The notes under the pieces are model-generated. The model saw only the letters and a list, made by a program, of their open reading frames with translations, was not told the origin of the DNA and made no database searches. A stretch of DNA of 64,000 nt, taken from positions 248,001 to 312,000 of the forward strand of contig NZ_JAJMOX010000001.1 in the NCBI RefSeq assembly GCF_020991455.1. Reading direction: 5' to 3'. The first letter of the stretch is position 1, and every line of letters starts with the position of its first letter. Shown piece after piece: positions 19,571 to 57,517 of the stretch. A program made the translations under genes and the position numbers. The DNA comes from Flavobacterium sp. JAS (GTDB taxonomy: Bacteria; Bacteroidota; Bacteroidia; Flavobacteriales; Flavobacteriaceae).

Positions 19571-20575
19571 ATGGCAATAACAATTCAGGAAGCAATAAAA
19601 AAAAATATCCTAATCCTTGACGGAGCAATGGGAACAATGTTGCAACGCTATAATTTCTCCGAAGAAGATTTTCGTGGAGAGCGTTTCAAAGATTTTCCAC
19701 ATCCCCTAAAAGGAAACAACGATTTACTATCCATAACACAACCACAAGCAATCCGCGATGTCCACGCCGCTTATTTTGAAGCGGGTGCAGACATCGTAGA
19801 AACCAACACTTTTTCAGGAACTACGATCGGTATGGCCGACTATTTCCTGGAAGACTTGGTTTACGAATTAAACTACGAATCGGCTAAAATTGCCCGAGAA
19901 GTAGCTGATGAATTTACAGCTAAAAATCCGGAAAAACCACGTTTCGTTGCCGGTTCAATTGGCCCGACAAACAGAACCGCAAGTATGTCTCCAGACGTAA
20001 ACGATCCGGGTTACAGAGCCGTAACGTTTGATGATTTGCGAATTGCCTACAAACAACAAGTAGAAGCCTTAATGGATGGTGGCTGCGATTTACTTTTGGT
20101 AGAAACAATCTTTGATACTTTGAATGCTAAAGCAGCACTTTTTGCCATCGAAGAAGTAAAAGACGAACGTAATTTGGATATTCCGATTATGGTTTCAGGA
20201 ACGATTACCGATGCTTCAGGAAGAACACTTTCCGGACAAACGGTTGAAGCATTCTTGATTTCAGTATCACATATTCCGTTATTGAGTGTTGGTTTCAATT
20301 GCGCTCTTGGGGCCGATTTGTTAAAGCCATACCTTAAAACATTAGCACAGCATACTAGTTTTAATGTTTCGGCGCATCCAAATGCAGGTTTACCAAACGC
20401 ATTCGGACAATATGATGAAACACCAGAACAAACTCAGGCATTTATTAAAGAATATTTAGACGATAATTTAATCAACATAATTGGTGGTTGTTGCGGAACA
20501 ACTCCGGATCATATTCGATTAATTGCGGAAGTGGCAAAGGATTATAAGCCGAGAGTGGCGCCGGTTTTTGCGTAA
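19571..20575 (+). CDS. metH: Methionine synthase, homocysteine-binding part
   Basis: 334 aa, matching only the first domain of cobalamin-dependent Met[10 protein letters not shown] (17-25), [25 protein letters not shown] and the zinc-binding cysteines Cys244, Cys307 and Cys308 (GFNCA and GGCCGT). It binds homocysteine as a zinc thiolate for methyl transfer. The other domains are encoded by the separate gene at 21487-24162. The two must act as one enzyme, so this is a split metH. ATG start behind a SAM riboswitch. Confidence 0.93.
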
Positions 20576-20627: not shown

Positions 20628-21275
20628 ATGGAAGAGTATAGATTTGAATATATAGATCAGATAAAATCAATATTTCTCTGTATAAGCCTGCCTTTTATAT
20701 TTTATTTAGTGTTTTCTGTAATGAATTCAATCGATGGAAATATTTTTAATGTCTACATCATTATACTAATACCATTAAGCGTTTCATTTCTTTTTTATTG
20801 GTTAAATAGAAATAGGATTAAAATTCAATGTATTGCTAGAATAGGAGATAAAAATACTGAAATTGAAAGCTTAGGAAAATTAAGAATCGTTTGTTTTGAG
20901 GAAATATCGAGTTATAGAATTCAAGCAAATAATAGTATTTCTAGTGTATTGATTAATTTAAAAGGAAGTGAAAAAATTAAACTTTCTACATATTCACAGT
21001 TTTTTCATAAATCTAATACATTCAATGAATATTGTTTCGATTTAGAAGATGCAATTGACAGTTATAAAAATAAATATAATATTGAAATTAAAAGAGAAAA
21101 AACTCTTTTTGAGAAAAAGCGGTTTCTACCATTTTTAATAATTTTTTCAATCATTTGTGGATTATTATTTATCATAAACACAAAGTATGAAAATTATAAT
21201 TTATGGCCATTTATCTTTCCAGTATTGTGGCTTTGGGCAGGGTACTTGGAGCAGATCAAGAAAAAGGCTATGTAA
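20628..21275 (+). CDS. Membrane protein of unknown function between the metH halves
   Basis: 215 aa. Two N-terminal membrane segments (about 13-32 and 40-60), a polar middle of about 110 residues rich in beta-forming stretches (ISSVLINLKGSEKIKLSTYS), and two C-terminal segments (about 166-183 and 191-208). The layout resembles bacterial PH-like membrane proteins but no motif proves it. Codon use is more AT-rich than the metH parts, hinting at a later insertion. It has no visible link to methionine synthesis. Confidence 0.75.
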   Translation: MEEYRFEYIDQIKSIFLCISLPFIFYLVFSVMNSIDGNIFNVYIIILIPLSVSFLFYWLNRNRIKIQCIARIGDKNTEIESLGKLRIVCFEEISSYRIQANNSISSVLINLKGSEKIKLSTYSQFFHKSNTFNEYCFDLEDAIDSYKNKYNIEIKREKTLFEKKRFLPFLIIFSIICGLLFIINTKYENYNLWPFIFPVLWLWAGYLEQIKKKAM

Positions 21276-21486: not shown

Positions 21487-24162
21487 ATGGCAGAAAAAAG
21501 AAGAGACCTTGTATTAGCAGGATTAGAACCGTTGATTATTACGCCTACCAGTGTTTTTGTAAACATTGGAGAACGCACAAATGTTACAGGTTCAAGAAAA
21601 TTCCTTCGCTTAATCAAGGAAGAGAAATATGACGAGGCGCTTGATATTGCAAGACAACAAGTAGAAGGTGGAGCACAAATCATCGATATTAATATGGATG
21701 AAGGAATGCTTGATGGTGTTCAGGCAATGACAAAATTTTTGAATTTAATTGCATCAGAACCGGATATCTCCAGAGTGCCAATTATGATCGACAGCTCGAA
21801 ATGGGAAATCATCGAAGCGGGTCTAAAAGTAGTACAAGGAAAAAGTGTTGTAAACTCAATCTCTTTGAAAGAAGGTGAAGAAGCCTTTATTCACCACGCC
21901 AAATTAATCAAACGTTACGGAGCTGCGGCTATTATCATGGCTTTTGACGAAGTTGGTCAGGCCGATAATTTTGAGCGTAGAGTCGAAATTTGTCAGCGTT
22001 CGTATGATATTTTGGTTGATAAAGTTGGGTTTCCTCCACAGGATATTATTTTCGATTTGAATATTTTCCCCGTTGCAACCGGAATGGAAGAGCATCGCTT
22101 AAATGCTTTGGACTTTTTTAGAGGTACGAAATGGGTTCGCGAAAACTTACCTCACGCGCATATTAGTGGTGGAGTAAGTAATGTTTCGTTTTCTTTTAGA
22201 GGAAATGATCACGTTCGTGAAGCGATGCACTCGGTGTTTTTATACCACGCAATCAAGAACGGAATGACAATGGGAATCGTAAATCCGGAAATGCTTTCGA
22301 TTTATGATGATATTCCAAAAGATTTATTAGAACACGTTGAAGACGTAATTCTGAACAGACGTGACGATGCAACTGAAAGACTTTTGGATTTTGCTGAAAA
22401 CGTAAAAGGCGAAGTAAAATCAGATGAAAAAGCGATTCAGGAATGGCGTTTAGGAACGGTTCAGGAGCGTATTACACATTCATTAGTAAAAGGAGTTGAT
22501 GCTTTTATTGAAGAAGATGTTGAAGAAGCGCGTCTTGCTGCGACAAAACCAATTGAAGTTATCGAAATCAATTTGATGACGGGAATGAACGTTGTTGGAG
22601 ATTTATTTGGAAGCGGAAAAATGTTCTTGCCTCAGGTAGTAAAATCGGCACGTGTAATGAAAAAAGCCGTTGCTTATTTGTTGCCATATATTGAAGCAAG
22701 CAAACAAGCGGGAGATAAACAAGGAAACGGAAAAATATTGATGGCAACCGTAAAAGGTGACGTTCACGATATTGGTAAAAATATTGTTTCGGTAGTTTTG
22801 GCGTGTAATAACTACGAGATTGTAGATCTTGGTGTTATGGTGCCTCCGGAAAAAATTATTGCTGCTGCGATTGAGCACAATGTAGACATTATTGGTTTAA
22901 GCGGACTGATCACTCCTTCGCTTGACGAAATGGTTTATTTGGCAAAAGAATTAGACAAACAAGGAATTAAAATTCCGATTATGATTGGAGGAGCAACGAC
23001 TTCGCGCGCGCATACTGCCGTAAAAATCGCTCCACAGTATAGAGAAACTGTAATTCACGTAAACGATGCTTCGCGCGCCGTTACTGTTGCAGGAAATTTA
23101 TTAGATCATAACCGAAAAATATATGCAAGCGATATTCGTGCTGATTATGATGCGTTTAGAGAAACGTTTTTGAATCGTTCAAGAGATAAAAACTTCCTGA
23201 CGATTGAGCAAGCACGTAAAAATAAATTACAATTAGACTGGGCGGAATATACGCCTACAAAACCAAAAGTAATTGGTAAACAAATCGTTGAAGTTGATCT
23301 TGATGTTTTGGTTCCGTATATCGACTGGACACCCTTTTTTAGAACTTGGGAATTGTTCGGAAAATATCCGGCGATCTTAACGGATGAGGTTGTGGGAACA
23401 GAAGCAACTTCGGTTTTTGCAGATGCTCAGGAAATGCTGAAAGTGATTTTGGCAGAGAAAAAATTAACCGCTAAAGGTATTTACGGAATTTTCCCTGCGA
23501 ATCAAATTGATGATGACGATATCGAATTGCGTGATGAAAACGGAAAAGTTTTGGAGAAATTCTTAACACTTCGTCAGCAGTCACAAAAAACGAAAGGTGC
23601 ACCAAACATAGCTTTATCTGATTTTATCTTACCAAAAGATTCTGGAATTACAGATTATATTGGAGCTTTTTGTGTAACAACAGGTTTTGGAGTTGACGAA
23701 TGGGCAGCAGAATTTGAAAAAGATCTTGATGATTATAATTCGATTATGGTAAAAGCATTAGCCGATCGTTTTGCTGAGGCTTTCGCCGAATATCTTCACG
23801 AGAAAGTACGTCAGGATTTCTGGGGTTATGACGCTGAAGAATCACTTTCGACAGAAGATTTAATCGAAGAAAATTACAAAGGAATTCGTCCTGCACCAGG
23901 ATATCCTGCTTGTCCGGATCACTTAGAGAAACCAACAATCTGGAAACTCTTGAATGTCGCAGACGAAATTGGAGTAACATTAACGGAAAGTATGGCGATG
24001 TGGCCAGCATCATCAGTTTCTGGATATTACTTCGGAAATCCGAAAAGTAAGTATTTTGGACTCGGAAAAATAAAAGAAGATCAAGTAGTAGATTACGCCA
24101 AACGACGTAACGTACCAACAGATTACGCAGCAAAATGGTTAAACCCTAATATAGCAGATTAA
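21487..24162 (+). CDS. metH: Methionine synthase, folate/B12/activation part
   Basis: 891 aa holding MetH domains 2-4: pterin-binding ([14 protein letters not shown] at about 20-33, then EGMLDG), the B12 cap and B12-binding domain with the [10 protein letters not shown] motif (about 424-433; His426 is the expected lower cobalt ligand), and the SAM-dependent reactivation domain ([14 protein letters not shown], then [12 protein letters not shown] near 805). It transfers methyl from methyltetrahydrofolate through cobalamin to homocysteine held by the partner protein. It starts with ATG preceded by CTTAGGATCTTAG repeats, 911 bases after the first half. Confidence 0.95.
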
Positions 24163-24333: not shown

Positions 24334-25290
24334 ATGAAAGTAACAGAACATATAGAAAACGCCAAAGGAAATACATTATTCTCGTTTGAACTTATTCCAC
24401 CTCAAAAAGGGAAAAGTATTCAGGAATTATACGATAATATTGATCCGTTGATGGAGTTTAAACCGCCATTTATTGATGTAACTACTTCACGTGAAGAGTA
24501 TATTTATATTGATAAAGGAAACGGGCTTTTGGATAAAAAGCTAACTCGTATGCGTCCGGGAACACTTGGAATTTGCGCTTCTATAAAACATAAATACAAT
24601 GTTGACACCGTGCCACACTTGCTTTGTGGTGGTTTTACACAGGAAGAAACAGAATATATGCTGGTAGATTGTCAGTATTTAGGAATCAACAATGTAATGG
24701 CACTTCGTGGCGATGCAATGAAAGACGAACAATCTTTTGTGCCAAAAGCGGGCGGTAACAGTTATGCTATTGATTTGGTAAAGCAAATCAATAACTTAAA
24801 CTGTGGAAAATACCTGCATGAAGTTATGGATGCCGATAATAAAGCTGATTTTTGTATAGGTGTTGCTGGATATCCGGAGAAACATTTAGAATCTCCATCT
24901 TTACAATCAGATTTAAAAAGACTAAAAGAAAAAGTAGATGCCGGAGCTGATTATGTGGTAACACAAATGTTTTTCGACAATACTAAATATTTTGAATTTG
25001 TGGCAAAAGCAAGAGAAATAGGCATTACAATTCCTATTATTCCTGGAATTAAGCCAATTGCTGTTCAAAGACATTTACAGATTTTACCACAGATTTTCCG
25101 TATTGATTTACCGGAAGATTTAATTGATGCTGTTGATAAATGCAAGAATAATGCAGAAATCAAACAAGTGGGAATCGAATGGGCAATTCAGCAATCGTTA
25201 GAATTGAAAGCTGCCGGAGTTCCTGTTTTGCATTATTATTCAATGGGAAAATCAGAGAATATTCGCCAAATCGCGAGTCAGATTTTTTAA
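24334..25290 (+). CDS. metF: 5,10-methylenetetrahydrofolate reductase
   Basis: 318 aa, a complete TIM-barrel MetF that makes the methyl donor for methionine synthase using NAD(P)H and FAD. Visible family blocks are SFELIPPQKGKS (17-28), VTTSREEY, NVMALRGD (about 128-135), GVAGYPEKH (about 174-182), QMFFDN and PIIPGIKPI (about 234-242). It lies 171 bases after the second metH gene on the same strand and is probably expressed with it under the SAM riboswitch. Confidence 0.95.
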   Translation: MKVTEHIENAKGNTLFSFELIPPQKGKSIQELYDNIDPLMEFKPPFIDVTTSREEYIYIDKGNGLLDKKLTRMRPGTLGICASIKHKYNVDTVPHLLCGGFTQEETEYMLVDCQYLGINNVMALRGDAMKDEQSFVPKAGGNSYAIDLVKQINNLNCGKYLHEVMDADNKADFCIGVAGYPEKHLESPSLQSDLKRLKEKVDAGADYVVTQMFFDNTKYFEFVAKAREIGITIPIIPGIKPIAVQRHLQILPQIFRIDLPEDLIDAVDKCKNNAEIKQVGIEWAIQQSLELKAAGVPVLHYYSMGKSENIRQIASQIF

Positions 25291-37054: not shown

Positions 37055-38842
37055 TTATTTTGTATCGGTTGAAAAAAGATTTACCAAACTTTTAACGTCA
37101 ATTTTACACAATTGTTGTAATTGACTCACCGTTCCGTGCTCAATAAACACGTCAGGAATACCCAAAATTTCAATATTATTTTTATAATTATTTACCGCTG
37201 CAAATTCCAAAATTGCACTTCCAAAACCACCGTTTATAGCGCCGTCTTCAATGGTAATTATCCTTTCGAAAGAAGAAAATATGTTATGTAATAATTTGAT
37301 ATCTAGTGGTTTAATAAACGGAAAGTCATAGTGAGCAATTGTTTCCGGATTGTTCAATTCATCGATTGCCAATGTCACATTATTTCCGATAGTTCCAGTC
37401 GATAAAATTGCCTTTTTTGTTCCGGATTTTAAGACACTAGCCTGTCCTATATTAATTTTTTTATATTGTCCGAAATTTTCTACTTCCCAGTTTGGTAAAA
37501 CACCTCTACCACGCGGATATCGAATTGCGATAGGATGATTTAAGCCTAATTGTGCCGTAAATAAAATATTTTGAAGCGCAATTTCGTTAATTGGTGCGTA
37601 AATTATCATGTTCGGAATTGTGCGTAAATAAGCAATATCAAAAACGCCGTGATGTGTTGCGCCATCTTCGCCAACCAAACCGGCGCGGTCCAAACAAAAA
37701 ATAACAGGTAAGTTTTGCAAGGCTACATCATGAATAACCTGATCGTAAGCACGCTGTAAAAAAGTCGAATAAATATTGCAATATACAATCATGCTCTGAG
37801 TTGCCATTCCGGCTGCAAGCGTTACGGCATGTTGCTCGGCAATTCCAACATCAAAAGCACGTTCCGGAATTTCGTCCATCATAAACTTTAAAGAACTTCC
37901 AGATGGCATTGCAGGCGTGATTCCGATGATTTTTTTATTCTTTTTGGCTAAATCTAAAATGGTTAAACCAAAAACATCCTGAAATTTTGGAGGAAGATTT
38001 TCTTCAGATTTTAAAATAATTTCTCCGGTCGAAGCATCAAATTTTCCGGGTGCATGATATTTTACCTGATTTTCTTCAGCTTGCTGTAAACCTTTCCCTT
38101 TTGTAGTTACAATATGAAGAAATTTAGGGCCTTTTATATTTTTTAATCGATTTAATTCTTTGATTAAAGTAGGGAGATCATGTCCGTCAATTGGTCCTGA
38201 ATAATCAAAATTCAAAGACTTAATCATGTTATTCTTCTTCGGATTTTTTCCTTCTTTTACAGCGGTAAGATATTTTTTAAGTGCGCCAACGCTGGGATCA
38301 ATTCCAATAGCATTGTCATTTAAAATAACCAATAAGTTAGCATCTGTTACTCCTGCATGGTTTAAGCCTTCGAAAGCCATTCCGGATGCAATAGAAGCGT
38401 CACCAATAACTGCAATATGTTGTTTGTTGAAATCACCTTTTAAATTAGAAGCAATCGCCATTCCTAACGCTGCCGAAATAGAAGTAGAAGAGTGACCAAC
38501 GCCAAAAGTATCGTAGACACTTTCGCTTCTTTTAGGAAAACCTGAAATGCCTCCGATTTGTCTGTTCGTATGAAAAATTTCTCTTCTTTCAGTCAGGATT
38601 TTATGTCCGTAAGCCTGATGTCCAACATCCCAAACCAATAAATCTTCAGGAGTATTGAAGACATAATGCAAAGCAATTGTCAATTCTACAACACCTAAAC
38701 TGGCGCCCAAATGTCCTTCTTTTACAGAAACTACATCAATAATAAATTGACGTAATTCTTGTGCGACTTCTGGAAGTTGTTCTTCAGAAAGTAAGCGTAA
38801 ATCAGCAGGATTGTATATGTTTGAAAGTAAGTTGCTTTTCAT
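37055..38842 (-). CDS. dxs: 1-deoxy-D-xylulose-5-phosphate synthase
   Basis: 595 aa, slightly shorter than E. coli Dxs (about 620). Thiamine-PP enzyme that joins pyruvate and glyceraldehyde 3-phosphate at the start of the MEP isoprenoid pathway. Visible blocks: GHLGASLGVVELTIALHYVF, WDVGHQAYGHKILT, the GDASIASGMAFEGLNHAG TPP motif (about 147-164), DVGIAEQHAVTLAAGMA and RAGLVGEDGATHHGVFD. Shares an operon with the DUF3078 gene. Confidence 0.96.
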   Translation of the reverse strand: MKSNLLSNIYNPADLRLLSEEQLPEVAQELRQFIIDVVSVKEGHLGASLGVVELTIALHYVFNTPEDLLVWDVGHQAYGHKILTERREIFHTNRQIGGISGFPKRSESVYDTFGVGHSSTSISAALGMAIASNLKGDFNKQHIAVIGDASIASGMAFEGLNHAGVTDANLLVILNDNAIGIDPSVGALKKYLTAVKEGKNPKKNNMIKSLNFDYSGPIDGHDLPTLIKELNRLKNIKGPKFLHIVTTKGKGLQQAEENQVKYHAPGKFDASTGEIILKSEENLPPKFQDVFGLTILDLAKKNKKIIGITPAMPSGSSLKFMMDEIPERAFDVGIAEQHAVTLAAGMATQSMIVYCNIYSTFLQRAYDQVIHDVALQNLPVIFCLDRAGLVGEDGATHHGVFDIAYLRTIPNMIIYAPINEIALQNILFTAQLGLNHPIAIRYPRGRGVLPNWEVENFGQYKKINIGQASVLKSGTKKAILSTGTIGNNVTLAIDELNNPETIAHYDFPFIKPLDIKLLHNIFSSFERIITIEDGAINGGFGSAILEFAAVNNYKNNIEILGIPDVFIEHGTVSQLQQLCKIDVKSLVNLFSTDTK

Positions 38843-38894: not shown

Positions 38895-39737
38895 TCATTC
38901 CAATACAATTGGTAAGGAATATTGCATTCTTATTTTTTTTCCATTAGATTCTCCCGGTTGCCATTTTGGTGATAAGCTTAAAACTCTAATAATTTCGTTC
39001 TCTATATTTTTATTGATAGCAGGGACTGATTCAATATAGGATAAAGTGCCGTTTTTTTCTACTGCAAAGGAGATTCTAATTTTTAGATTTTTGGTATTTG
39101 TATTTTCGGGTGTTTTAAATTCCTTTCCAAAAAAGGTATAAAAAGGGTCAATTCCTCCAGGAAATTCAGCATTGGTATGAATAACCGCTCCAGTAACGTA
39201 AACTTCACCTTGTGATACATCATCACTTTTGATTTTCTCCTTTGGTTTTACAAATTTTACCTGATCAACTTTTGGCGGCGGTGGTGGCGGTACATGTCTT
39301 AAAGTGTCGTTTGGGTCATGTTTAGGAGGTAAAGCGAGCCCAACAGTTACATGTTCTGTTGAAGCATCATCCTGAACAACTTCTACTTTATCAATTTTCT
39401 GTTTCTTTCCTTCTTTATTCTGACAGCTAAATAAAGTTGTTCCCATTGCCAGAAATAATGCTAACAAAAACATTTTATAATAATTAGTTTGTGCATATAC
39501 AATGTGACTCGGAATTTGAATTATAACAGAATCTAATTGTTCATTTTTAAATCTTCCACAAATTCCAGTATTTTGATTTTGAGCAAAAAATTGTTGAATT
39601 TCATCTGGTAACTTAGTTGTGAAATCTATAACAGTTTTGGAACAGCTCATGCAAAAGCGACCATTGTCTTTTGGAGTCATTTTGTCCCAGCTTTCATAAC
39701 ATGGTTCGGGAATTGTTATTTTGTGTTTTCTGTTCAT
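38895..39737 (-). CDS. TonB-like protein with four-cysteine N-terminus (downstream copy)
   Basis: 280 aa. Residues 1-65 carry Cys13, Cys29, Cys32 and Cys60 in EPCYESWD, GRFCMSCSKTVIDF and ICGRF, a probable metal site or zinc ribbon in the cytoplasm. One membrane segment (about 87-103) follows, then a linker with a six-proline run (about 151-156) and a C-terminal TonB-type domain (ISFAVEKNGTLSYIESVPAI, then PKWQPGESNGKKIRMQYSLPI). It overlaps the upstream paralog by one base (TAATG). Confidence 0.75.
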   Translation of the reverse strand: MNRKHKITIPEPCYESWDKMTPKDNGRFCMSCSKTVIDFTTKLPDEIQQFFAQNQNTGICGRFKNEQLDSVIIQIPSHIVYAQTNYYKMFLLALFLAMGTTLFSCQNKEGKKQKIDKVEVVQDDASTEHVTVGLALPPKHDPNDTLRHVPPPPPPKVDQVKFVKPKEKIKSDDVSQGEVYVTGAVIHTNAEFPGGIDPFYTFFGKEFKTPENTNTKNLKIRISFAVEKNGTLSYIESVPAINKNIENEIIRVLSLSPKWQPGESNGKKIRMQYSLPIVLE

Positions 39738-40564
39738 TATTTAATTGTAATAGGTAAAATATAAGAGGAGCGAACAATACGATTTTTTAGTTTTCCGGGA
39801 ATCCAATTTGGGGCTGTTTTTAAAACTCTAATAGCTTCTTCACCAATTTCGATTGGTGTATTTTTAGGTACGTTGAAATTACTCAAACTGCCATCTTCTT
39901 CCACTACAAATATAATATTTAGTTTTCCCTGAAATTTTTCTGTTTTGTTTGGAGCAACATAATTTTTGCTAAAAAAATCATAGAATTTTTTCATTCCATT
40001 TTCTGGAACCGGTAAAACATCTAAATCATTTGAATTGTATATAATATTGTATTGAAAAGTTCCCGTTTCAAAAGAATTGGGAGCAATTAGCATTCCCATT
40101 GTAAACCTTTGAGGAGCTTTTTTTGTTTTTACTTTTTTAGACTCGATTTGATGTCCATAACATACGGGAGTAACTTCATTTTGATCTTGCCCGGTATTAT
40201 CAACAATTTCGATTTTATCAATTCTGTTTTTGTTCCCATCTTTATCTGCACAACTAAACAAAGTCGTTCCCATAGCAATGAATAATGCCAATAAAAACAT
40301 TTTATGATAATTGATTTGAGTATATAAAACCTGACTCGGAATTTGAATTGTTACTGTCTCTAATTGTTCATCTTTAAACCTTCCGCAAATACTTTTGTTT
40401 TGATTTTGAATGAAAAAATACTGTACCTCTTCAGGCAGCATAGTTGTGAAATCTATGACGGTTTTAGAACAGCTTAGGCAAAAGCGACCATTGTCTTTTG
40501 GAGTCATTTCATCCCAGTTTTCGTGACATGGTTCGGGAATTGTTATTTTGTGTTTTCTTTCCAT
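39737..40564 (-). CDS. TonB-like protein with four-cysteine N-terminus (upstream copy)
   Basis: 275 aa, paralog of the next gene with near-identical first 65 residues (Cys13, Cys29, Cys32, Cys60; GRFCLSCSKTVIDFT) and membrane segment (about 87-103). The periplasmic part differs: no proline run, but a C-terminal TonB-like module (LNIIFVVEEDGSLSNFNV, PNWIPGKLKNRIVRSSYILP). TonB domains usually pass energy to outer-membrane receptors or act as adaptors. No ExbB/ExbD genes are near. The cytoplasmic cysteine motif may sense metal or redox state. Confidence 0.75.
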   Translation of the reverse strand: MERKHKITIPEPCHENWDEMTPKDNGRFCLSCSKTVIDFTTMLPEEVQYFFIQNQNKSICGRFKDEQLETVTIQIPSQVLYTQINYHKMFLLALFIAMGTTLFSCADKDGNKNRIDKIEIVDNTGQDQNEVTPVCYGHQIESKKVKTKKAPQRFTMGMLIAPNSFETGTFQYNIIYNSNDLDVLPVPENGMKKFYDFFSKNYVAPNKTEKFQGKLNIIFVVEEDGSLSNFNVPKNTPIEIGEEAIRVLKTAPNWIPGKLKNRIVRSSYILPITIK

Positions 40565-40625: not shown

Positions 40626-41069
40626 ATGATAAATCCCTTCACCGACGAATACTTTATGAAAAAAGCTTTGCAGGAAGCTGAAATGGCTTTTGATAAAGGC
40701 GAAATTCCTGTTGGAGCTATTATTGTTGTTGCCGACAAAGTAATTGCAAGAAGTCATAATTTAACCGAATTATTGAATGATGTTACGGCTCATGCCGAAA
40801 TGCAATCTATAACCGCTGCAGCAAACTTTCTAGGTGGTAAATATTTAAAAGATTGTACTTTATACGTAACGCTCGAACCTTGCCAAATGTGTGCAGGTGC
40901 TTTGTATTGGAGTCAGATTTCTAAGATTGTTTTTGGAGCGCGTGACGAACAACGCGGTTTTATGACGATGGGAACAAAATTACATCCAAAAACAACTGTA
41001 GTTTCTGGAATTATGGCAAATGAAGCAGCCGATTTAATGAAACGTTTTTTTGTAGAAAGGCGAAAGTAA
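40626..41069 (+). CDS. tadA: tRNA adenosine(34) deaminase TadA
   Basis: 147 aa from ATG 40626. An upstream in-frame ATG (40548) would add 26 residues lying over the promoter and the divergent gene, so I reject it. Zinc motifs are HAEMQSI (His and catalytic Glu, about 56-58) and PCQMCAG (about 86-92). The start FMKKALQEAEMAFDKGEIPVGAI is characteristic of TadA, which makes inosine at the tRNA-Arg wobble position. A guanine deaminase relative is less likely. Confidence 0.9.
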   Translation: MINPFTDEYFMKKALQEAEMAFDKGEIPVGAIIVVADKVIARSHNLTELLNDVTAHAEMQSITAAANFLGGKYLKDCTLYVTLEPCQMCAGALYWSQISKIVFGARDEQRGFMTMGTKLHPKTTVVSGIMANEAADLMKRFFVERRK

Positions 41070-57139: not shown

Positions 57140-57517
57140 TTACGATTTAATATTCGAAACTTTATAAGTTTTTCCGTCTCCAGTTGCCTGAACTGTTTTA
57201 GTTAGGTTTTCTTGATTTTGAATCGTTTTGTCAAATACAACAGTAGCTGTTTTTTTATCAAAATCAACAGTTGCTTTTTCAACTCCGTCAAGGTTTGATA
57301 ATTCTTTTTCGATTGTTTTTGCACATCCCATTGCACAAGTCATTCCTTCGATTTCGAAACTTGCAGTTTGTACATTTTCGGCTGCAATTGCTTTGTGTTC
57401 TTTTGAAACGTCTGCTATGGGTTTTATATTTGCTAAATTTTTATCTTCTTCTTTTTTGCAGCTTACGAATACTAAGCCTGCAATTGCTAATGATACTACG
57501 ATTTTTGTAAATTTCAT
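57140..57517 (-). CDS. HMA-domain lipoprotein with CxxxC metal site
   Basis: 125 aa. A lipoprotein-type signal (KIVVSLAIAGLVFVSCKK, lipid Cys20) is followed by a charged linker and a heavy-metal-associated domain (52-121). The metal loop reads GMTCAMGCAKTIE with Cys61 and Cys65, one residue longer than the usual GMTCxxC. VEKATVDFDKKTATVVFD is the typical beta-hairpin. It probably binds Cu+ or another soft metal in the periplasm. It has its own -7 box. Confidence 0.85.
   Translation of the reverse strand: MKFTKIVVSLAIAGLVFVSCKKEEDKNLANIKPIADVSKEHKAIAAENVQTASFEIEGMTCAMGCAKTIEKELSNLDGVEKATVDFDKKTATVVFDKTIQNQENLTKTVQATGDGKTYKVSNIKS

Follow-up and report, generated by a model that had tools for sequence, protein, structure and literature searches.

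Four-cysteine modules precede predicted cleavable signal peptides in TonB-like proteins of Flavobacterium and in other cargo of the Bacteroidia

What is a module with four conserved cysteines doing at the head of a protein that ends like TonB? The question is raised by two overlapping genes in the window, the whole stretch of 64,000 nucleotides analyzed here from Flavobacterium sp. JAS (contig NZ_JAJMOX010000001.1, positions 248,001 to 312,000). Gene A, the upstream one (39737..40564, minus strand; 275 aa), encodes the four-cysteine module, a hydrophobic segment with the features of a lipobox signal peptide and a TonB C-terminal-domain-like part, and gene B, the downstream one (38895..39737, minus strand; 280 aa), follows the same plan. 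The initial annotation described the pair as tightly coupled genes for TonB-like proteins with Cys13, Cys29, Cys32 and Cys60 in a shared N-terminus, and suggested a signalling or energy-coupling variant.

The description of the gene pair holds: the four cysteines are present in both A and B, and the two reading frames overlap by one base, as TAATG. The claim that the first 65 residues are shared stands insofar as 52 of the 65 are identical (80%), but the shared part is longer than was stated, since near-identity continues beyond residue 65, through the hydrophobic segment and up to Cys105 (82/105 and 90/121 identical residues); over their full length the two proteins are 45% identical. Downstream of gene B by 52 nt and on the same strand lies a frame that we take to be dxs, encoding 1-deoxyxylulose-5-phosphate synthase (37055..38842, minus strand), and a presumed tadA-like deaminase gene (40626..41069, plus strand; start picked by eye) diverges from gene A. 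By tblastn, 76 of 76 related loci have an array of one to five module genes flanked by tadA, in divergent orientation, and by dxs on the same strand as the array; these loci are nearly all from Flavobacterium and, drawn from the best 80 of 578 confirmed matches, are near relatives and not a random sample. In 55 of them, no more than 89 nt separate the array from dxs. A contig labelled as a Limnohabitans MAG (L134, JASGCW010000004.1) also holds a Flavobacterium-type tadA-module-dxs locus, which is probably binning contamination. Copies within one locus share a mean identity of 75% in the module versus 31% in the C-terminus (67 pairs). When modules are compared, 12 of 82 members have their nearest relative at their own locus, and when C-termini are compared, 0 of 82 do; these nearest-relative counts give a weak hint of gene conversion between tandem copies. 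Elsewhere in the window, two frames (19571-20575 and 21487-24162) that appear to be the halves of a split methionine synthase are separated by an unrelated membrane-protein frame (20628-21275) and followed by a presumably metF-like frame (24334-25290), and a predicted lipoprotein at 57140-57517 (minus strand) carries GMTCAMGC in what we take to be a heavy-metal-associated-like domain.

The assignment of the C-termini to TonB held at the level of predicted structure but is weak at the level of sequence, with PF03544 scores of 21.6 bits for A and 19.5 bits for B, both under the cut-off of 24.6. The C-terminal part of A was predicted with block pLDDT values of 79-94 from residue 181, and the top matches of this model in Foldseek are TonB C-terminal domains, led by 6i97_D (E 2.5e-4, probability 1.00); residues 191-275 of A (39740..39994, minus strand) are thus predicted to adopt a TonB C-terminal-domain fold, and the possibility raised at the outset, that this region is no TonB fold, did not materialize. 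The TonB C-terminal-domain-like region of B (residues 196-280; 38898..39152, minus strand) is assigned by sequence comparison, structure prediction having covered A. The same genome encodes an ExbD-linked TonB (L199; its ExbD partner was recognized by eye), to which A is 44% identical over 103 columns and B 36% over 228 aligned columns, the latter including a common proline-rich linker, PPPPPPKVDQVKFVKP, at residues 150-165 of B (39243..39290, minus strand). This linker is kept in 8 of 135 TonB-type proteins. Such likeness fits an origin in which the periplasmic part of a TonB was put behind the four-cysteine leader. The ExbD-linked TonB begins with a different N-terminus (MKLDIIKNQWLDIVFEGRNKIYGAYELRK...), and the canonical TonB N-terminus, with its ExbB/ExbD-coupled helix, is absent from A and B by sequence, their hydrophobic segment being ended by a lipobox. 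Among the reading frames adjoining the pair, inspected by eye, no exbB or exbD was recognized, the neighbors being tadA and dxs; linkage of exbB/exbD to tonB is common, not obligatory. The His/Ser signature of the E. coli TonB helix was also sought, and no His occurs in 133 hydrophobic cores; this test was set aside as uninformative because the TonB helix of the same genome, judged by eye, shows none either. Also encoded in this genome (L198 855-2081, C1) is a membrane protein, presumably BlaR1/M56-like in its membrane part, fused to a TonB_C domain.

The segment that had passed for a membrane anchor ends in a fifth conserved cysteine, Cys105, which lies in ...MGTTLFSC directly after the hydrophobic stretch; the typical segment of TonB-type proteins reads FLLALFxxMGTTLFSC. 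Core and lipobox together occupy residues 88-105 in both proteins, as KMFLLALFIAMGTTLFS followed by C105 in A (40250..40303, minus strand) and as KMFLLALFLAMGTTLFS followed by C105 in B (39423..39476, minus strand), and each is a predicted Lgt/Lsp site. About 88 residues precede the core in A and B, an n-region far longer than that of usual signal peptides, so this is not a short N-terminal signal peptide; the anchor reads, from its sequence, as an internal type II signal peptide. Since the lipobox (LFS before Cys105) ends the segment, Cys105 should be the first residue of the mature protein, which would then lack both the module and a membrane helix; the TonB-like part is probably separated from the module by this cut and kept in place by a lipid anchor. 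The lipobox is found in 123 of 125 distinct full-module proteins from the 76 nearest loci, the exceptions being a frame cut at 80 aa (L097) and L087:4227, and in 133 of 135 TonB-type proteins, a class defined by a home-made C-terminal profile from lipobox-bearing Flavobacterium members and therefore leaning towards lipobox carriers. An earlier figure of Cys105 in 74 of 74 rows was discarded in favor of these unselected counts, as those rows had been selected for a lipobox. In Flavobacterium reichenbachii, the second of five tandem copies (L087:4227-5069) has lost the lipobox cysteine (TTLFSQ) and the other four keep it; one TonB-type relative, L172, has a small residue followed by Gln in place of the lipobox. 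TonB-type lipoproteins occur in further families of the class: when ten of 51 proteins from newly sampled genomes were scanned, five were PF03544-positive above the cut-off and all five carry a lipobox. One other protein from the newly sampled genomes, L216, is TonB-like by eye, has no Pfam match and shows neither lipobox nor small-residue/Gln ending.

The module itself spans residues 1-75 (40340..40564 in A and 39513..39737 in B, both minus strand), with Cys13, Cys29, Cys32 and Cys60 accompanied in A by Asp38 and Gln67. Conservation of the cysteines in relatives, on which the initial annotation had staked its proposal, is borne out, as at each of the four positions 236 of 237 aligned modules, counting the window pair, have Cys (three truncated and two partial ones were left out from 243, and L144, a 108-aa match without the four cysteines, was left out of the cysteine and cleavage-signature counts). 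Cys60 is lost in a 79-aa frame (L166) and the other three in one frameshifted fragment (L184); Asp38 (99%) and Gln67 (97%) are nearly as fixed as the cysteines in the aligned modules. The module is translated, as codons 1-88 of 94 relatives with Cys105 differ 1593, 868 and 3441 times at codon positions 1, 2 and 3. An AlphaFold2 model of the module by itself reached a pTM of 0.63 and block pLDDT values of 81-89 for residues 11-70 (83-89 for residues 11-50, 82 and 81 for residues 51-70), with strands at 21-23, 26-29, 34-38 and 59-62 and helices at 44-53 and 65-70. No PDB fold matched this model in Foldseek at E ≤ 0.001, and 45 module sequences gave no coherent or convincing match in Pfam, NCBIfam or PDB sequences; the best Pfam match, DUF6887 (E 1.4e-5, in 4 of the 45), is likely a chance helix match. 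Because its four cysteines are near-invariant, the module probably binds metal, conceivably at a single site shared by all four, and its natural placement, read from the sequence, is in the cytosol. With a profile of 45 modules, 64 of 197 class genomes (43 of 120 genera) gave a match, and with a smaller profile 43 of 296 phylum genomes did so at E ≤ 0.001, both samples holding one genome per species; the window module alone as query reached 29 of 80 family genomes at E ≤ 0.01. Seeds for the profile were selected by a pattern containing CxxC, which makes the approach mildly circular; the initial searches were run without any such pattern.

A search for the module fused to other periplasmic domains, as had been suggested, was productive: the same leader precedes SusC-type domains, plugs and type IX secretion cargo, and because it is common to all of these, the module is no TonB-specific feature. 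In a set of 116 proteins (one of which, L144, is no true member), cargo domains recognized at E ≤ 0.01 comprise 63 CarbopepD_reg_2, 23 TonB_C, 2 Plug and 2 Por_Secre_tail. Of ten members that were scanned, five aligned with the SusC/RagA model TIGR04056 from position 1-4 to 73-113 and two plug-type members from 86 or 149 to 205-207; L044 and L061 matched nothing. Judged by these alignments, the seven look like detached SusC pieces. Overall, the cargo is skewed to the TonB/receptor junction, that is, to TonB C-terminal domains, SusC N-terminal-extension domains and plugs. In SusC-like Bt1763, according to passages of the published study, the N-terminal extension domain directly precedes the TonB box VDEVVV, mutants of the extension or of the TonB box show poor or no growth on levan, and the authors suggest that the extension could give specificity among TonBs (PMC7782687); an excerpt of a 2025 force-transducer study likewise cites work linking the N-terminal extension domain to TonB interaction (PMC12204202). 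Strings resembling L[GDEN]EVVV occur in 15 of 51 CarbopepD-type members, versus 0.5 expected from shuffles, and sit towards the C-terminus; in L012 and L023 they fall near SusC-model positions 78-83 (interpolated), just past the extension domain. As the members of the family have common ancestry, these cargo counts do not represent independent events.

In 144 non-redundant proteins (L184:4084 and frames under 100 aa left out), a lipobox or a small residue before Gln follows the module in 132 and neither does in 12. Of the 144, 78 have the lipobox, where windows taken further downstream in the same proteins predict 1.5; among the other 66, [AGST]-Gln lies no more than 26 residues beyond the core in 54, where such windows predict 13.4. 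A further set of 51 proteins from 30 new genomes, assembled from 40 regions that were hand-chosen among the class matches for new genomes and good module scores, and including one 5'-truncated copy, was judged by nearly the same rule: 26 have a lipobox, 20 the small-residue/Gln ending and 5 neither, so 46 of 51 pass. FecR, whose cytosolic and periplasmic domains are joined by a single helix and in which cleavage at this place is not expected, served as control; 7 of 30 FecR proteins pass (1 lipobox, 6 small-residue/Gln), and the small-residue/Gln rule alone is loose. The length of the uncharged stretch was dropped as an argument for a signal peptide, since it does not separate module proteins from FecR (median 17 versus 18.5). 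All these tests are simple patterns with controls, not a trained signal-peptide predictor. The study behind the Gln rule for Bacteroidetes signal peptidase I reportedly has a 2023 follow-up. As given in part of the original report, products of this peptidase typically start with Gln, more than 60% of them in P. gingivalis once predicted lipoproteins are removed (PMC5837995). At the C-terminus of six module proteins (L042, L056, L203, L208, L223 and L228), a sorting domain for type IX secretion scores above the curated cut-off, and as type IX cargo must leave the inner membrane, these six argue for cleavage after the module; in three of the six (L042, L203, L208) the predicted site is a lipobox and not a signal-peptidase-I site, an odd combination. 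Glu_cyclase_2, a glutamine cyclotransferase domain and thus the enzyme type that would cap products with the small-residue/Gln ending, was matched by 3 of 100 immediate neighbors of module genes (L138, L149, L155), the latter two by way of 47% and 46% identity to the L138 neighbor; the three probably share ancestry.

A short string in gene A, TMGML (residues 155-159; 40088..40102, minus strand), is an instance of a recurrent "MG" motif, hh-G-[DEKMQ]-h, in the exported parts of module proteins. The pattern was fixed by eye with both protein sets already in view, and its counts are therefore descriptive. Examples are IMGDVAYIPDT and LMGEVVVVK, further ones occur in L223, L208 and L229, and some CarbopepD-type instances coincide with the LGEVVV-like strings. 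Across the 7141 residues of the 51 new-genome proteins there are 44 sites (6.2 per 1000), where shuffles give 6.2 sites; the densities in the first set are 2.4 per 1000 in TonB-type proteins (26 sites versus 8.3 in shuffles), 5.3 in CarbopepD-type proteins (41 versus 8.1) and 4.2 in proteins without a domain (16 versus 2.9). In 208 neighboring reading frames the motif occurs 44 times in 51763 residues (0.85 per 1000), and in the 50 neighboring frames with a crude signal peptide 8 times in 12315 (0.65 per 1000). At least one copy is found in 15 of 18 short lipoproteins of the new-genome set, and the motif is present even where any domain is absent. An unsupervised search for it returned mainly the conserved stretch after the lipobox instead. 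We flag the motif for testing as a TonB-box-like element.

These observations bear unequally on the alternatives. That A and B are uncleaved, single-pass TonB variants in which a cytosolic metal or redox site tunes ExbB/ExbD energy coupling, much as the initial annotation had it, would account for the TonB C-terminal-domain fold, for the single hydrophobic segment and for the proline-rich linker that B has in common with the ExbD-linked TonB of its genome. This reading nonetheless seems quite unlikely to us: a lipobox is conserved in 133 of 135 TonB-type members, the N-terminus is not that of the ExbD-linked TonB and lacks the canonical TonB features, no exbB or exbD was recognized by eye beside the pair, and CarbopepD, plug and type IX cargo behind the same module would hardly need ExbB/ExbD. 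We regard as very improbable, in turn, that these are ordinary lipoproteins whose true start is Met89 (MFLLALF...LFSC), the upstream stretch being a separate or unused frame. Translation from Met89 would endow the window pair with a short lipoprotein signal of textbook form, but this position, although Met in 95 of 133 TonB-type proteins, holds Ile, Leu or another residue in the remaining 38, on which ground the downstream start was rejected, and the module is under coding constraint and far better kept than the C-terminus (75% versus 31%).

A scheme of surface signalling like that of FecR deserves longer consideration. Here, binding of a TonB box or a receptor piece by the periplasmic part would free or alter the cytosolic four-cysteine module, which would then act on a transcription factor or another cytosolic target. 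The overall layout is the same as in FecR, the cargo resembles receptor and TonB pieces, and at two loci (L186 3354-3842 and L166 3438-3845) an ECF-type sigma gene lies directly upstream of a module gene and divergent from it. We nevertheless judge the scheme rather unlikely, given that signal-peptidase-like ends occur in 46 of 51 module proteins versus 7 of 30 FecR proteins. Sigma genes speak less clearly against it: no sigma match was obtained in 76 of 76 tadA-dxs loci, a weak negative in that the probe found sigma in only 8 of 30 FecR control loci (about 3 kb), and by the same weak probe (8/30 controls) 5 of 60 other loci hold a sigma gene, none of them on the same strand directly upstream. 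Nor does a neighbor family recur, the commonest matching 4 of the 100 immediate neighbors scanned (of 106, six, those of L144, L145 and L147, having been left out; among the 25 listed of 150 families). The window pair itself has no FecR match, yielding only TonB_C and a weak DUF3299, and FecR is not one of the 25 families listed, out of 26, for the 116 members scanned.

The reading we prefer, and hold with moderate confidence, is that the module is the cytosolic, probably metal-binding prefix of a cleavable export leader and that A and B are lipid-tethered TonB C-terminal domains uncoupled from ExbB/ExbD. Residues 1-75 would fold in the cytosol around the four cysteines, which would hold one metal ion, most likely zinc, and residues 88-104 would form the core of a type II signal peptide. 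Once Sec had exported the protein, Cys105 would be lipidated by Lgt and the chain would be cut before it by Lsp. A membrane stump with the module on its cytosolic side would be left, and the product would be a lipid-tethered periplasmic protein ending in a TonB C-terminal domain, in other words the receptor-binding end of TonB without the ExbB/ExbD-coupled helix and with no connection to the motor. Mature A and B would most likely occupy TonB boxes, or the MG-type strands supplied by sister proteins, without exerting force, and may act as a cap, a competitor or, equally possibly, an adaptor at the TonB-receptor junction. Other pieces of that junction would use the same leader for export, namely plugs and SusC N-terminal extensions whose ends resemble a TonB box. 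Our best guess for the module is that it makes export depend on metal or redox conditions or on a partner in the cytosol; a signal left behind by cleavage is another option. The architecture, the conserved cysteines, the lipobox or small-residue/Gln ends, the predicted TonB fold of A, the cargo types and the conserved locus are seen in sequences or computed models, whereas metal binding, cleavage, topology and above all the cap or competitor action are inferred.

Comparison with described systems places the proteins between several of them. With TonB energy transducers (PF03544/TIGR01352), A and B have in common the C-terminal-domain fold and, in B, the proline-rich linker; in A and B, however, the ExbB/ExbD-coupling helix is replaced by the four-cysteine module and a lipobox, and the locus is tadA-dxs and not exbB-exbD. 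Sister proteins with this leader correspond to the N-terminal extension (PF13715) or plug of SusC/RagA in aligning with the extension/TonB-box or plug region of TIGR04056, but they are stand-alone pieces without a barrel and with a four-cysteine leader. FecR-type anti-sigma regulators (PF04773) also place a similarly sized N-terminal domain in the cytosol, before a single hydrophobic segment and a periplasmic domain; A and B differ in having no FecR match, module proteins differ in their signal-peptidase-like ends, and the absence of a FecR-like sigma arrangement at module loci is a further, weakly supported difference. The extended signal peptide region of autotransporters, an N-terminally extended signal peptide, likewise puts a conserved cytosolic extension before a cleavable signal peptide, whereas the extension described here is a predicted folded four-cysteine module of about 75 residues. 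A literature search covering titles and the openings of abstracts, with most subscription papers outside its scope, returned no four-cysteine folded signal-peptide extension and no prior account of a four-cysteine leader or of a lipidated TonB domain.

The usual picture of a signal peptide is a short, disposable one, and a conserved, apparently folded four-cysteine prefix on unrelated cargo, found in roughly one third of the sampled class genomes, would be a new way to control export. It is possible, though doubtful enough that we offer it tentatively, that the Bacteroidia own a dedicated leader, in which a cytosolic, metal-binding four-cysteine module stands before a cleavable signal peptide, and use it to send loose parts of the TonB-receptor junction (TonB C-terminal domains, SusC extensions with TonB-box strands, plugs, and lipid-tethered or secreted strands with the MG motif) into the envelope to cap or rewire TonB-dependent traffic, the module tying export to the metal or redox state or leaving a signalling stump. 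For proteins of the A and B type, the bare label "energy transducer TonB" would mislead. The Bacteroidota are a phylum known for TonB-dependent uptake, and the cargo of this leader hints at a layer at which the TonB system may be regulated by detached pieces of its own parts.
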